From: Planctomycetia bacterium
GTDB taxonomy: Bacteria; Planctomycetota; Planctomycetia; Pirellulales; JALHLM01
Length of the DNA: 44,487 bases
Assembly: GCA_034440135.1 (NCBI GenBank)
Contig: JAWXBP010000054.1
Coordinates: 1 to 44,487 of the forward strand
Reading direction: 5' to 3'
Below are positions 22,753-28,892 of the stretch, piece after piece. Each line of letters opens with the position of its first letter. The first letter of the stretch is position 1. The notes beneath the pieces are model-generated. The model was not told where the DNA came from, ran no database searches, and saw only the letters and a list, made by a program, of their open reading frames with translations. The position numbers and the translations under genes are program-made.

Positions 22753-23262
22753 ATGCTCCGCAAACTTTTCGCCGCCTTCGCGGCCGTGATCCTGTTCGTC
22801 GTCGTATTGACTTTCTTCGGCGGCGAAACTCCCGGGCTAATCGCCCCCGGCGACGTCGCGCCGCAGATCAAGGCCGGGCAATGGGTGGGCGGCGATGCGC
22901 CTCAATTCGCGGGCAAGATTGTCGTGGTCGACATCTTCGCCACCTGGTGCGCGCCGTGCGTCAAAACCACACCGCCGCTGATCGACGTCTACGAGGAATT
23001 CAAGGATCACGACGTGGTCTTCGTCGGCCTGACGAACGAGGACGGTAATTCACGGCGCGAAGTGGAAGCGTTCCGCGAACAAATGAATATCCCCTGGACG
23101 TTGGGGATCGATGCCACGGAGACCATCGCCGAAATTGGCGTCCCGATCCTGCCGCTGCTGATCGTAATCGGCCCGGACGGCAAGGTCCTCTCCGTCGGCG
23201 GCGACGATCGTACCCTGCGCGAAACTCTGAGCCGCGCCATCGCTTACCAAAAAGCCTCCTAG
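22753..23262 (+). CDS. TlpA-like membrane-anchored thioredoxin-fold protein
   Basis: The 169-residue protein has an N-terminal membrane anchor or signal (MLRKLFAAFAAVILFVVVLT) and a thioredoxin domain facing outside the cytoplasm. The redox motif is FATWCAPC, with Cys66 and Cys69. VFVGLTNEDGNSRREVEAF and the cis-proline segment GVPILPLLIVIGPDGKV complete the TlpA/ResA pattern. Such proteins reduce disulfides in cytochrome c maturation or other exported proteins. No cytochrome-maturation gene is adjacent, so the partner is unknown. Confidence 0.87.
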   Translation: MLRKLFAAFAAVILFVVVLTFFGGETPGLIAPGDVAPQIKAGQWVGGDAPQFAGKIVVVDIFATWCAPCVKTTPPLIDVYEEFKDHDVVFVGLTNEDGNSRREVEAFREQMNIPWTLGIDATETIAEIGVPILPLLIVIGPDGKVLSVGGDDRTLRETLSRAIAYQKAS

Positions 23263-23433: not shown

Positions 23434-23727
23434 ATGAAAAAGATTTGGGGATTCGTGGCGTGCTTGGGCTTGATCGCGTCGACCGTGGGTTGCAGCCCCG
23501 CCACTGAAACCAAGGTCGATGACGCCACGCAGGCGACGCAAGACGCCGCCGCGAGCGCCGTCGAGGACGTCAAGGACGCCGCAACGGGCGCCATGGAAGA
23601 CGTCAAGGATGCCGGCGACGACGCCGTCGATGCCGTGAAAGACGCCGCGACCGACGCCAAGGACTCCGCTGCCGACGCCACGTCGGACGCCGCCGACGCG
23701 GTCAAGGACGCCGTCGACGCCAAGTAG
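23434..23727 (+). CDS. Asp/Ala-repeat lipoprotein, LEA-like
   Basis: A 97-residue lipoprotein with signal peptide and lipobox ASTVGC (Cys20). The mature part is almost entirely Asp, Ala, Lys and Val in irregular units such as VKDAATDAKDSAADATSD. The spacing of hydrophobic Val/Ala and charged Asp/Lys suggests an amphipathic helix like LEA or apolipophorin-type proteins. AAGGG lies near the start as a ribosome binding site. A strong terminator follows, so the gene ends its transcript. A structural role in the envelope or in desiccation or osmotic protection is a guess. Confidence 0.75.
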   Translation: MKKIWGFVACLGLIASTVGCSPATETKVDDATQATQDAAASAVEDVKDAATGAMEDVKDAGDDAVDAVKDAATDAKDSAADATSDAADAVKDAVDAK

Positions 23728-23772
23728 TTCTCACTGCCTGGCGGGAATTTCCGCAAATACAGCCACGCACAC

Positions 23773-23801
23773 ACGCCCGCGAAGCACCGCTTTGCGGGCG
23801 T
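23773..23801 (+). terminator. Intrinsic terminator after the Asp/Ala-repeat lipoprotein
   Basis: ACGCCCGCGAAGC (23773-23785) pairs with GCTTTGCGGGCGT (23789-23801) over 13 positions with one G-U pair and a 3-base loop. The T-tract is short. It separates this gene from the sulfur-carrier operon that follows. Confidence 0.6.
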
Positions 23802-23845
23802 TGTCGTGCGCACTCGGTGCCAAATGTCTATTCTCGACAACCAGA

Positions 23846-23861
23846 TCAGGTATGATCCTGA
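23846..23861 (+). promoter_or_regulatory. -10-like element inside an inverted repeat before the sulfur-carrier operon
   Basis: TATGAT (23851-23856) lies between TCAGG (23846-23850) and CCTGA (23857-23861), a 5-base inverted repeat. It lies 38 bases before the ATG at 23899. No good -35 hexamer is seen, so a regulator may be needed if this is the promoter. Confidence 0.4.
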
Positions 23862-23898
23862 CTGGTTTCAAGCTTTCCGGGGAGGTGATTCTACGCGC

Positions 23899-24177
23899 AT
23901 GAGCAGCGACCACGCGGAGTCAACCTGCCAGCCACACGCCGTCCAAACCTGGGACGCTGGCGATCTTGCCTGCGGAGAGTTGGTGCTTGAACTGCGGATG
24001 CGGATGCAACGACTCGCGCCCGGGACGATGATGTGCCTCATCACGCGCGACCCCGGGGCGATCTTGGATATCCCCGCCTGGTGTCGCATCACCGGTCACT
24101 TGTTGCGGTCAGCCTCGCCTCCAAACTTTTTACTGGAACGCCGCCCGGAATCGTTGGATTCAATCGAATCAAGTTGA
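23899..24177 (+). CDS. TusA-like sulfur-carrier protein, variant motif
   Basis: From ATG 23899 (GGGAGGTGA about 11 bases upstream) this is a 92-residue protein. Residues 18-82 read like a TusA/SirA domain: WDAGDLACGELVLELRMRM places Cys25 where TusA carries its persulfide cysteine, followed by LAPGTMMCLITRDPGA and the strand WCRITGHLL. The usual CPxP after the domain start is replaced by Cys-Gly, so it is a divergent branch. A second conserved Cys is at position 62 (PAWCRITG). TusA proteins carry sulfur between enzymes. It is the first gene of an operon with a DsrE protein and a fusion that repeats the same domain. Confidence 0.72.
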   Translation: MSSDHAESTCQPHAVQTWDAGDLACGELVLELRMRMQRLAPGTMMCLITRDPGAILDIPAWCRITGHLLRSASPPNFLLERRPESLDSIESS

Positions 24178-24202
24178 TCGTCCACAATTGGGAGCCCTGG
24201 AA

Positions 24203-24565
24203 ATGCCCGGAAAATTCTGCGTTTCTCTCACCTGCGCAAAGGACGACGCCGACCGCGCGACTGTGGCTTTTGTCGTGGCAAACGCCGCCGTCGGATCCGA
24301 ACAAGAAACGGTCGTATTCCTGAGCACGGAGGGCGTGCGCCTCGCCGTCGCTGGCTACGCCGACGACATCGCGGAAGCAGGCTTCGCGCCTCTACGCGAC
24401 TTGATCGCCAACTTCGCGACCGCAGGCGGGACCATTTATGTCTGCTCCCCCTGCTTCAAAAAGCGCGTTCTCGATGAGACGAAACTAGTCGCCGGCGCGA
24501 AGATTGTCGGCGGCGCCAAGCTGGTCGAATTCCTGGCCGGCGGCGCGCCATGCATCAGCTATTAG
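24203..24565 (+). CDS. DsrE-family sulfur-relay protein
   Basis: A 120-residue DsrE/DsrF-like protein starting at ATG 24203, 25 bases after the TusA-like gene. It begins MPGKFCVSLTCAKDDADRAT, with VVFLSTEGVRLAVAGYADDI and GGTIYVCSPCFKKRVL; Cys81 sits where the family has its active cysteine and Cys84 makes a CxxC with it. A further Cys117 is near the C-terminus (GGAPCISY). DsrE proteins accept and pass persulfide sulfur, commonly with TusA partners. Peroxiredoxin-like or unknown roles exist in the same family. Its place between two TusA-like domains supports a sulfur-relay job. Confidence 0.8.
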   Translation: MPGKFCVSLTCAKDDADRATVAFVVANAAVGSEQETVVFLSTEGVRLAVAGYADDIAEAGFAPLRDLIANFATAGGTIYVCSPCFKKRVLDETKLVAGAKIVGGAKLVEFLAGGAPCISY

Positions 24566-24607
24566 TCTCACACACCGCGGCCGCAGCCCGCCGAGAAACC
24601 CATTGCG

Positions 24608-26125
24608 ATGAGCCCAGCGGATGACCTGCGCCCCGCCGCCAGCTTCGACGGCGGCGATCTCGATTGCGGCAACGGCCTACTGCTATTGATTCGCAAGCAC
24701 ATCGACCCCTTGTCCGCGGGGCAACTGCTCGAAATCTTCTCGCGGGAATCGTCCGTGGCCGAAGATCTCCCGTCCTGGTGCCGGCTGACGGGCAACGAAC
24801 TGGTCACGCACGAGCAGTCAAATCGCGTGCATCGATTCCTGGTTTCGCGGGGGCCATTCGCGAAGCACGACGAAGCCAGCGTGACTTCGGTCACTCGGCC
24901 GGAAGTTCGCGATGCTCCGGCGACGGCCACGCCGCGAAATGCTTCGGTTCCGCCGACGGTAGCGCCCATTCCACCGCTCGCTGTGCTGGGCATCGGCAGT
25001 TGGCCGCGCCCGGCGTGGATGCTCCGCGCGCTGCACGAACGTCTATGCGGTCGGCTCGAGGAAACCGAATTTCAACAAACCGCCGACGACGCCATTCGCC
25101 TTGCCGTGGCAGCCCAAGAACGCGCCGGCGTCGACCTGATAACCGACGGCGAGCAGCGCCGCGACAACTACGCCAGTTTCGTCGGCGCGCTGCTGGAAAA
25201 CTGCCAACTCGTGCCGATCACCGATTTGCTGGCCTACGTTGACGATCCCGAGCATTTCGCCGAAGAGCTGCGCGGCCTCGACGTGCCGGCCGACAAAGTG
25301 CGGCATCCCGCAGTGTTCGGTCGGCTTGCTCGCAAGCGTTCACTCGCACTGCATGAGCTTCAATTTGTCCAGAGTATCTCGCGCACGCCAGTCAAAGTCG
25401 CCCTGCCGGGGCCGTATTTGCTCACGCGTACGATGTGGCTGGAGTGCGTTAGTGATCGCGCCTACGCCTCGCGCGAAGAGCTGGCCGCCGATATTGTCAA
25501 GATTCTGCGCGCCGAGGCCGAGGCGCTGCTGCAGGCCGGCGCGACGCTAGTTCAATTCGACGAGCCGGTGTTGACCGAAGTTGTCCACGGACGCACTGCC
25601 GGCAATCGCGTTTTCATGTGCGGCGCGCTTGGGGCGCGACGCGACACGGAAGAGGAACTCGCCTTCGCCGAGCAACTGTTGTCGGAGACGCTCTCCGAGC
25701 TGCCGGCGGAACGTTTGGCGCTCCACATCTGCCGCGGCAACTGGACCACCGACGAAGGCGCGGCCCTCACCGGGGATTACGCGCCGTTGATGGGCCTGCT
25801 CGCGCGCGTGCCGGTCGGCGCAGTGCTTTTGGAAATGTGTACACCCCGCGCCGGCGATGTGGCGCTACTCGCTTCATTGCCACAGCGGCTTCGGATCGGC
25901 GTCGGCGTCGTCAATCAGAAATCGCCCCGCATCGAGACGCTGCCCGAGGTCCTGTCTCGGGCGGAACGGGCGATTGAACTCTTTGGCGCGGACCGCGTGC
26001 TGCTTCATCCGGACTGCGGCTTCGCTACTTTCGCGGATTCCCCTATCGCCGCGGCCGACGTGGCCGAGCGCAAACTCGCGGTTGTCGTTCAAGCAGCGCG
26101 TCAATTGCGCGAGAGCTTACGGTAA
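24608..26125 (+). CDS. TusA-like domain fused to core methionine synthase (MetE C-terminal type)
   Basis: A 505-residue fusion. Residues 11-80 repeat the TusA-like motif of the first gene (FDGGDLDCGNGLLLLIRKHI with Cys20; PSWCRLTGNEL with Cys58). After a Pro/Ala linker (about 85-125) comes a MetE C-terminal type barrel: LGIGSWPRPAWML, DLITDGEQRRDNYASFVG, ALPGPYLLTRTMW, FDEPVLTEV, HICRGNW, LLEMCTPRAGD, GVGVVNQKSPRIET, HPDCGFATF. His373, Cys375, Glu409 and Cys470 occupy the zinc positions. Homologues transfer methyl groups to homocysteine or use coenzyme M thiols. The large N-terminal barrel of full MetE is absent, as in core methionine synthases. The methyl donor and acceptor are unknown. Confidence 0.82.
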   Translation: MSPADDLRPAASFDGGDLDCGNGLLLLIRKHIDPLSAGQLLEIFSRESSVAEDLPSWCRLTGNELVTHEQSNRVHRFLVSRGPFAKHDEASVTSVTRPEVRDAPATATPRNASVPPTVAPIPPLAVLGIGSWPRPAWMLRALHERLCGRLEETEFQQTADDAIRLAVAAQERAGVDLITDGEQRRDNYASFVGALLENCQLVPITDLLAYVDDPEHFAEELRGLDVPADKVRHPAVFGRLARKRSLALHELQFVQSISRTPVKVALPGPYLLTRTMWLECVSDRAYASREELAADIVKILRAEAEALLQAGATLVQFDEPVLTEVVHGRTAGNRVFMCGALGARRDTEEELAFAEQLLSETLSELPAERLALHICRGNWTTDEGAALTGDYAPLMGLLARVPVGAVLLEMCTPRAGDVALLASLPQRLRIGVGVVNQKSPRIETLPEVLSRAERAIELFGADRVLLHPDCGFATFADSPIAAADVAERKLAVVVQAARQLRESLR

Positions 26126-26645
26126 GGAAGTCTCGTCAAAGTGCGTTGACTCTGCCGACGCCCGTAACGCAACTTGCTGTCGATTCGATCGCCAATCGCG
26201 TCGCGCGATTCAGCGCCGCCAAATAAATCGGTGGGGCGCCGCCAGGCGAGAGCCGATTGGATTGGCCCGTTGGCGATCGAAAGCGGACGCAGGCCCCACC
26301 CGTGGGCTGCCTTGTCCAGCGGTCAAACCGGTAGATGCCTTCGAAATTGCGCGATCTACGCATGGCGCTAAGTCACGAATGGGACAAGTGATAGACGACA
26401 CCTCGGTCTGTGAATCGAACTCACTGCGGTCGCGCTGAATGCGCTTCCGCACGTTCCAACAGTCGAGCGGAAACACTGCCGATTCCTGTGACCTTGAGGC
26501 TTATGCCAGAACCGCCGCGCTCGGCAGCCGTGGCGCAGGTCACTGCGAAGCGCGACGATAGATCATGCAGAACCGATACATCCGGCGACGGCGGCCAATG
26601 TTATTAGCCTCACGCCTATCGCCGCGGCATTTGGGAGCAAAGCTG
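26126..26645. other. Long intergenic region before the TonB-dependent receptor
   Basis: About 520 bases with no convincing gene. GGTGGGGC (26230-26237) pairs with GCCCCACC (26294-26301) across a 56-base loop, and GTAGAT/ATCTAC near 26331-26359 forms a smaller stem. I looked for a cobalamin riboswitch, expected before some TonB receptors, and saw no B12-box-like core. The promoter of the receptor must be here. Confidence 0.35.
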
Positions 26646-28892
26646 GTGAAACTACGCAATTGGCTGCGTTGCTTGGGTTGTGGCGTCATGCTCTGCGGCT
26701 GGGAGGGCCCACGAGCCGTCGCACAAGACGATGCATCTTCGCTGGAAGCGGACGGCGAACCATCCACGCTGCCCCCCATCACCGTCACGCCGCCGGACGA
26801 GGAGACCAGCGTCGTCGACGAAACGCCTGCGTCGACGGCCCCAGCGGCGCGAAGTCCTTACGATCTTCCCTACAGCTATCCCAGCCTGTCGGGTCAGTTG
26901 TTCGAGGATCTCAGCGGCGTCACACGGCGGCCGACGAACGTGTTCGACGATCCGAGCGAAGTGACGATCATCAATCGCCAGCAGCTCGACGAACGTATGC
27001 CGCAGGACATGTTTCAGGCCCTGGAACGCGAGGTCGGCGTGCTCATGCAACGCACGGCCCGTGGCCAGGCGTCGCCGTTTCTGCGAGGGCTCACCGGCCA
27101 GCAACTGCTGATCCTGGTCGACGGAATCCGGCTCAACAACTCGACCTTCCGCACGGGCGCGAATCAATACTCCAACACGATCGATCCGGGCCAGGTGGAA
27201 CGCATCGAAGTCATGCGCGGACCGCAATCGACCCTGTACGGCTCGGACGCCCTCGGCGGCGCCATCAACATCGTCACGCGGAGCGCAAGTCCTTTCGACG
27301 GCAATTACCGCGGCGGCTCGTTCACCGAGTACTTCAGCACGGCGGATACCGGTTCGTACAGCCGCGGCAACGTCGAAGGCTGGGTGCAGAATTCCGGTGT
27401 CTTCGCCGGCGCGAGCTACTTGAATCTCAACGATCTCGATCGCGGCGGCGATCTCGGCCGGCAGCCCTTCACGGGTTACGATCAATACGCGGGCGACGTG
27501 AAATACAACTACCTGCTCTCCGAGGACGCGCTCGTCACGGTCGCGCTGCAACACTTTGAGCAAGACGACCTCCCGCGCAGCGACCGCTTTCCGCCGTTTG
27601 TGTTCGGCCCGCCGGTCGGTGCGCCGCGCCCCACGTTCTTCGATCCACAGCAGCGCGACCTGGCGTACCTGCGGTTGCAGGGCGTCGCGTACAGCGGCTG
27701 GTGCGATAGCTACATGCTCACCGCGTCGTATGCGCGGCAGAAGGAAGGTTCTCGCGAGATTCGCAGCGCCACGCGGACCGATATTGGCGAATTCGAAGTC
27801 GATACGCTCGGCGTCAGCATGGTGATGACCAAGGATCTGGATTGGCTCGGCGCCTTGTCGTACGGGACCGACTTCTATCACGACGATGTCGACGCCTTCA
27901 AGAATCGACTCAACCCCGTGAACGGCGCCATCACGCCAGACATCGCGCAATTCCCGGACGACAGTTACTACGACCGCTTCGGCGTGTTCACGAATTGGAA
28001 CGTCGAACTCACCGACCGGCTCACCGCGAACACCGGCGTCCGCTACGAGAACATTGGCGTCTCCAGCACGCCGCTCATCTCTATCGATCCGCCCGGCGCG
28101 CCTCCCGCGGTGCTGGTGCCGACACACATCTCGCCCAGCTATCAGGATTGGGTCGGCAACGTCGGACTGACTTACGCGTTGACGGAGCGTTGGAACCTGG
28201 TCGGTTCCATTTCCGAAGGCTTCCGCGCGCCGAATCTCGACGACTTGGTGGCCACCAACACCTTAGTCCAGCAGAACGGGCAAGACATTCCGAGTATCTC
28301 GCTCGATCCGGAACACAGCATCAACTACGAAGTCGGCATGAAATGGGACTACCGCAAATGGCATAGCCAGGCGTTCGTCTTCTGGACCGAACTGGAAGAC
28401 AATATTCTGCGTACGCCTGTCGCGACCGGGTTGTTCCAACGCGACAATCGAGATTCCTACCTCAATGGTGTTGAGTGGTACGGCGAATACCTGCTGACGC
28501 CGCGCTGGAGCGTGTACGGCAACTTCGCCTACACCTACGGCAAAGACCTGGAACTCGACATCCCGCTGAGCCGCATCCCGCCGATGCAAGGCATCGCCGG
28601 GCTGCGTTGGCGCGACCAGCAGCATCGCTCTTGGTTCGACGTTTACACGTGGCTCGTCGACGAACAGGACCGGCTCAACTTTCAGGATCTGACCGACGCC
28701 CGCATCCCGGTCGGCGGCACGCCTGGCTACCAGACGTTCAACATCCGCGCCGGCCGGACGCTCGGACGCTGCGACAACCACCGCGTGAGCCTCACGCTGG
28801 AGAACATTTTCGATCAGGCGTATCGCGTTCACGGCTCAGGCGTCGACGGCCCCGGCTTCAACGCGATCTGCGGCTACGAGCTCCACTGGTAG
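26646..28892 (+). CDS. TonB-dependent outer-membrane receptor
   Basis: From GTG 26646 (GGGAG upstream, then MKLRNWLRCLGCGVMLCG, a signal peptide) it has 748 residues; an ATG at 26565 would add 27 residues without a ribosome binding site. A TonB-box-like PPITVTPP lies soon after the signal. The plug domain follows (EVTIINRQQLDERMPQDMFQ, LILVDGIRLNN, RIEVMRGPQSTLYGSDALGG). The rest is a beta barrel ending in an aromatic-final strand (GYELHW). The family takes up siderophores, vitamin B12, haem or glycans, and the substrate is not visible. The next gene is a TonB protein and the region also has a sigma/anti-sigma pair. Confidence 0.92.
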   Translation: MKLRNWLRCLGCGVMLCGWEGPRAVAQDDASSLEADGEPSTLPPITVTPPDEETSVVDETPASTAPAARSPYDLPYSYPSLSGQLFEDLSGVTRRPTNVFDDPSEVTIINRQQLDERMPQDMFQALEREVGVLMQRTARGQASPFLRGLTGQQLLILVDGIRLNNSTFRTGANQYSNTIDPGQVERIEVMRGPQSTLYGSDALGGAINIVTRSASPFDGNYRGGSFTEYFSTADTGSYSRGNVEGWVQNSGVFAGASYLNLNDLDRGGDLGRQPFTGYDQYAGDVKYNYLLSEDALVTVALQHFEQDDLPRSDRFPPFVFGPPVGAPRPTFFDPQQRDLAYLRLQGVAYSGWCDSYMLTASYARQKEGSREIRSATRTDIGEFEVDTLGVSMVMTKDLDWLGALSYGTDFYHDDVDAFKNRLNPVNGAITPDIAQFPDDSYYDRFGVFTNWNVELTDRLTANTGVRYENIGVSSTPLISIDPPGAPPAVLVPTHISPSYQDWVGNVGLTYALTERWNLVGSISEGFRAPNLDDLVATNTLVQQNGQDIPSISLDPEHSINYEVGMKWDYRKWHSQAFVFWTELEDNILRTPVATGLFQRDNRDSYLNGVEWYGEYLLTPRWSVYGNFAYTYGKDLELDIPLSRIPPMQGIAGLRWRDQQHRSWFDVYTWLVDEQDRLNFQDLTDARIPVGGTPGYQTFNIRAGRTLGRCDNHRVSLTLENIFDQAYRVHGSGVDGPGFNAICGYELHW

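Follow-up and report, generated by a model that had tools for sequence, protein, structure and literature searches.

A widespread operon of TusA-like and DsrE carriers and a MetE-type barrel with a probable role in selenium handling

Three adjacent genes of a planctomycete code for a TusA-like carrier, a DsrE-family protein and a MetE-type zinc barrel that bears a second TusA-like domain at its N-terminus. They belong to a conserved unit largely confined to selenium-using bacteria, and are probably a novel means by which bacteria handle or recycle selenium. They lie on the forward strand of a contig from a Planctomycetia bacterium (JAWXBP010000054.1, assembly GCA_034440135.1), the whole 44,487-nucleotide stretch of which is referred to here as the window. 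A preliminary description of this DNA had reported three tightly spaced genes bracketed by a terminator and a long gap. The reading frames, their order, strand and spacing (gaps of 25 and 42 bases) were all confirmed, with ATG start codons at 23899, 24203 and 24608 and a Shine-Dalgarno GGAGG before the first gene. The bracketing was also recovered, as a strong hairpin upstream, which is absent from the consensus terminator list, and as 439 bases between the end of the fusion gene and the next gene. The features are as follows.

About 23766–23810 (no strand assigned): hairpin, likely terminator of the preceding gene (RNA fold, -33.4 kcal/mol)
23899–24177 (+): TusA-like carrier gene, 92 aa, Cys-Gly motif in place of Cys-Pro (Pfam TusA, 5.1e-9)
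24203–24565 (+): DsrE-family gene, 120 aa, conserved VCSPCFKKR (CxxC) (Pfam DsrE, 4.3e-12; 3mc3, 3.1e-5; alignment of 83 relatives)
24608–26125 (+): TusA-like domain fused to a MetE-type barrel, 505 aa (Pfam; AlphaFold2 pLDDT 86.4; best PDB match MesD 3rpd, E 5.7e-22)
24635–24853 (+): N-terminal TusA-like domain of the fusion, about residues 10–82 (Pfam 25–80; secondary structure elements 11–80)
24665–24667 (+): Cys20, putative carrier cysteine (invariant, 65/65 fusions)
24965–26122 (+): MetE-type catalytic barrel, about residues 120–505 (Pfam PF01717, residues 129–497)
24998–25000 (+): Ser131, homocysteine-site residue (alignment; role from PMC7857596)
25151–25153 (+): Glu182, homocysteine-site residue (alignment; role from PMC7857596)
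25559–25561 (+): Asp318, homocysteine-site residue (alignment; role from PMC7857596)
25619–25621 (+): Cys338, invariant, in a family-specific insertion; UGA (Sec) at the same codon in loci L106 and L107 (alignments, codon comparison)
25724–25732 (+): His373 and Cys375, predicted zinc ligands (invariant; aligned to the MesD HxC)
25832–25834 (+): Glu409, predicted zinc ligand (invariant, 65/65; MesD alignment)
26015–26017 (+): Cys470, predicted zinc ligand (invariant, 65/65; MesD alignment)

Upstream of the operon lies a thioredoxin/TlpA-like ORF (WCAPC; 22753–23262, +), separated from it by a small Ala/Asp-rich ORF (23434–23727). The operon is followed by a TonB-dependent receptor (26565–28892, +; Pfam TonB_dep_Rec_b-barrel, 5.9e-37), kept at the same place in the close relative L003, and next to it by a TonB-like ORF at about 28.9–29.7 kb (+).

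The families named in the preliminary description (TusA-like, DsrE and a core methionine synthase domain in fusion) were identified correctly according to Pfam. Both TusA-like sequences, that of the separate gene and that of the fusion, exceed the Pfam TusA gathering score and thus have the TusA fold, and the product of the separate gene matches E. coli TusA structures (1.3e-5). Neither carries the CPxP motif, both having Cys-Gly where true TusA has Cys-Pro, and both are under the cut-off of the NCBIfam TusA equivalog (32.6 and 30.5 bits, vs 78). In several planctomycetes (L092:6389-7024, L063:2086-2694), the separate TusA-like protein has in addition a Cys-rich N-terminal domain with no Pfam match.

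In the fusion, Pfam finds TusA at residues 25–80 (1.7e-7) and Meth_synt_2 (PF01717) at residues 129–497 (3.3e-29), while the N-terminal barrel, already described as missing, is represented only by a weak Meth_synt_1 match below cut-off. The AlphaFold2 model consists of two confident domains, and for the barrel Foldseek has 3rpd and MetE among its matches. Since the linker between them is partly below pLDDT 50 and varies from 28 to 68 residues across the family, the modelled architecture is compatible with a swinging carrier. The barrel is predicted from its alignment to bind zinc: His373, Cys375, Glu409 and Cys470, singled out in the preliminary description, show no variation across 65 aligned fusions, and are also retained in 14 unfused barrels. 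The same applies to the retention of Ser131, Glu182 and Asp318 in both fused and unfused barrels, the corresponding Ser, Glu and Asp being the residues which hold homocysteine in MetE and MesD (PMC7857596). Six cysteines of the fusion (20, 199, 280, 338, 375 and 470) are invariant in 65/65 sequences, and among Cys199, Cys280 and Cys338 only the last is also kept in the unfused barrels.

Cys338, overlooked in the preliminary description, is the most informative residue. The insertion that carries it is missing from MesD and from two other methionine synthase relatives compared, and in the planctomycete orthologues L106 and L107 an in-frame TGA stands exactly at this codon, where the window protein has Cys. 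Counted by codon position, L106 and L107 differ at 8, 6 and 31 sites over the 60 codons downstream of the TGA and at 14, 11 and 34 upstream of it, so that changes are mostly in third position after the TGA as before it and translation evidently continues past it. An assembly error or a reassigned stop was rejected, given that two different planctomycete families share the TGA, that constraint continues beyond it and that TGA is the ordinary stop of other genes in both loci. The two are sister sequences in the tree, and the UGA is perhaps one event. Folding predicts stem-loops after the UGA, as candidates for a SECIS element. The other planctomycete TGA flags that were inspected were rejected as selenocysteine codons, as they are read-through of a normal stop. 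The Sec residue shows that the enzyme uses selenium; it does not in itself make its pathway about selenium.

A scan of genome contigs with the fusion as query turned up 289 loci that code for a related protein. The 80 best of them were kept, and analysed after their genes had been re-called with a codon model. These 80 come from Planctomycetota, Binatota, Proteobacteria and Actinobacteria. In 74 of them, a DsrE gene precedes the fusion on its strand at a distance of at most 5 kb, and 64 have the full order TusA, DsrE, fusion; the misses are partly short loci ending near the fusion, and in L082 the DsrE gene is slightly beyond 5 kb. With DsrE in this position in 74/80 loci from several phyla, the arrangement is far beyond chance, and the three genes are not neighbours only here. 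Within a sample of 392 planctomycete genomes the barrel is carried by 51, fused in 17 and unfused in most of the others. Most unfused loci examined have a TusA::OsmC protein directly upstream of the barrel. TusA thus has one of two fusion partners, OsmC or the barrel. All fused barrels belong to one clade of the tree (support 99/97).

The operon also varies in its additional genes. Binatota loci have no separate TusA, and the operon is there divergent from genes read by sequence as metY-metX-metW. Proteobacterial operons contain one or both of two inserts: the pair c4 (membrane, about 178 aa) and c7 (periplasmic, about 520 aa), and an ABC transporter. Neither c4 nor c7 has a Pfam match, though they are conserved (e.g. 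L082:932-3103 and relatives), and the predicted structure of c7 is of low confidence (pLDDT 53). The transporter, present in several proteobacteria, comprises a binding protein, a permease and an ATPase; its binding protein is closest to the hypophosphite-binding protein HtxB (2.2e-83), of which Trp52, Arg178 and Asp206, the residues singled out in PMC5700983, appear conserved in the alignment. In planctomycetes the extra genes code for a transglutaminase-like protein and a porin weakly similar to DcaP.

The connection to selenium is apparent from gene content and from gene neighbourhood. SelD is over the cut-off in 49/50 genomes with the fusion and the exception, G047, has SelA, so that 50/50 contain a selenium gene; SelA is found in 41/50. 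Part of this count is base rate, several of the clades being rich in SelD anyway. Within clades, SelD occurs in 45/51 barrel genomes vs 200/341 others for Planctomycetota, 8/8 vs 44/93 for Xanthobacteraceae, and 7/7 vs 142/193 for the Burkholderiaceae-level family. A clade-stratified CMH test of the SelD excess, in which kinship is ignored, gave a chi2 of 24.7 (p about 7e-7). Both actinobacterial fusion genomes, Yaniella (G030) and Micrococcaceae KG10, have SelD, the base rate in the family of Yaniella being 25/100. No SelD over the cut-off was found in the window's own genome, a MAG which is 96% complete, and none matched in five other barrel-bearing planctomycetes known from draft assemblies, one of them (G230) being one of the two with a UGA barrel.

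Linkage to selenium genes is seen in a minority of the fusion loci, most having none next to the operon. In a Xanthobacteraceae genome (G803, locus L118), tusA, dsrE, c4, c7, the fusion and selD follow each other on a single strand within a Sec gene cluster. A gap of 127 bases precedes selD there, a formate dehydrogenase is found upstream, and selB and selA lie farther down. Paracoccus has selA and then trxB after the fusion, with a UGSC gene split by an in-frame TGA nearby, and L027 has selB on the 3' side of the fusion, on the opposite strand. Together, the within-clade counts and the gene adjacency weaken the possibility of the selenium link being purely a lineage effect. The preliminary view of a sulfur operon can thus be kept in part: its frame of carriers combined with a thiol-activating enzyme stands, and its sulfur label gives way to selenium in view of the sel neighbours, the co-occurrence and the Sec codon.

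These neighbourhoods hold further genes. The UGSC-type gene of Paracoccus (L083:2508-3077, -) is annotated as two hypothetical proteins but forms a single frame in which a TGA codes for selenocysteine, residue 96 and the first of UGSC. Between selD and selB of L118 (11054-12676, -) lie genes for a GcvH-like protein, a second DsrE and a lipoate ligase, suggesting a lipoyl carrier in selenium handling. L021, L027, L035 and L038 likewise have a DsrE2 gene close to the fusion.

We consider it an even chance that the operon is a selenium-supply module in which the carriers bear selenium (or sulfur) while the barrel moves a methyl group. The TusA-like protein, DsrE and the TusA domain of the fusion would carry selenium, or sulfur as a stand-in, as a Cys-bound per-selenide or persulfide, and would so divide among separate proteins the role proposed for YedF. 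The barrel would bind a homocysteine-like thiol at its zinc and shift a methyl group between this thiol and a selenium or sulfur compound held by a carrier or by Cys338. A zinc-bound thiol placed beside a Cys/Sec residue and a tethered TusA domain does suggest that a group passes between the thiol of an amino acid and the selenium or sulfur on a carrier; the selenium cargo, the methyl-transfer reaction and its direction are what we infer from this. Demethylation of a methyl-selenium species onto homocysteine, which would give methionine and leave reduced selenium on the carrier for SelD, is the favoured direction by analogy with the Methanococcus SdmABC/TusAD response and the type I MGC methyltransferases. 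Spelled out in full, this would be a folate- and B12-independent enzyme passing a methyl group from methyl-selenium held by TusA or Cys/Sec338 to zinc-bound homocysteine, leaving per-selenide on TusA/DsrE for SelD in an oxygen-tolerant salvage; so specific a version is put forward tentatively, and we would rate it as rather unlikely to hold in every part.

Three other explanations account for some of the same observations. Selenium (or sulfur) may be transferred with no methyl chemistry, the barrel only holding a small thiol or selenol and passing selenium among the TusA domain, Cys338, SelD or cysteine. The TusA and DsrE carriers that accompany the barrel, the invariant Cys/Sec338 missing from the methyltransferase relatives compared, and selD or selA directly after the fusion in G803 and Paracoccus would all fit this, but the barrel retains a full homocysteine and zinc site of the methionine synthase type, which is beyond the needs of a carrier, and we regard this explanation as unlikely. 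The barrel may instead be a folate-independent methionine synthase of a fifth family, to which the carriers bring sulfur or some unknown donor of methyl groups, the selenium link being secondary. In favour of this are MesD as the nearest solved structure, the shared active-site residues and the Binatota operons, whose divergent metX/metW/metY-like neighbours fit a methionine role equally well. However, identity to MesD is just 29%, the adjacency of selD and selA and the SelD excess are left unexplained, and no locus examined has MesX (DUF1852), on which MesD depends, tblastn having matched only the Agrobacterium control; membership of the fusion in the MesD family was rejected on the latter ground, and the methionine synthase explanation appears distinctly unlikely.

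The least probable of the three, and in our opinion very doubtful, is that the operon exploits a small organosulfur anion, for instance methanesulfinate, which would be imported by the HtxB-like ABC transporter and have its sulfur captured by TusA/DsrE, the selenium signal being due to lineage. It draws on the transporter genes inserted in the operon of several proteobacteria and on the porin and transglutaminase-like protein of planctomycetes, but the transporter is missing from most loci, including the window, and neither the selD/selA linkage nor Sec at position 338 is explained. The selenium-supply module addresses a process that is poorly understood, namely how bacteria acquire selenium and hand it over to SelD without its being swamped by sulfur; none of the known transport systems for selenium is of high affinity, according to a 2022 review (PMC9312934). 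The operon is widespread, occurs in culturable bacteria, and is a direct and testable candidate for selenium trafficking or salvage, adding an enzyme of the zinc type that occurs in a selenocysteine form and in fusion with a carrier. The preliminary description knew of no account of this combination, and our search of the open-licence PubMed Central literature found no published description of TusA, DsrE and a fused barrel together either.

Among known systems, there are four published core methionine synthases, next to which the barrel would be a fifth family. MesD (3rpd; PMC7857596) is the best structural match and has, like the fusion, a single MetE-type barrel with no folate domain and the same zinc and homocysteine residues; it differs in pairing with MesX, whereas the barrel here is fused or adjacent to TusA and DsrE, and in having no Cys/Sec338 insertion. 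The catalytic C-terminal barrel is common to MetE and the fusion, which lacks the N-terminal folate barrel of MetE and falls below the cut-offs of all NCBIfam methionine synthase models (82.7 bits vs 929.95 for TIGR01371). The SdmABC and type I MGC methyltransferases belong to the wider MetE/UROD barrel class. YedF, which consists of TusA-like and DsrE-like domains and is linked to selenium, likewise pairs such a carrier with a DsrE protein in SelD-containing bacteria (PMC5322559), but in one chain, while here the two are separate ORFs with Cys-Gly instead of CPxP and a barrel in addition; the YedF family model gave no match among the NCBIfam matches listed. Methanococcus responds to selenium depletion with higher transcript levels of TusAD and of SdmABC, which handles methyl-selenides (PMC11097638). 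Type I MGC methyltransferases have been proposed to act on or recycle such compounds (PMC10418091). Both are methyltransferases tied to selenium genes, with a proposed role in methyl-selenium recycling, although they use a corrinoid protein and belong to anoxic organisms whereas the present operon has TusA/DsrE carriers and no corrinoid protein was recognised among its neighbours as read here. Corrinoid-dependent methyl-selenide demethylation is the nearest precedent for the proposed module.
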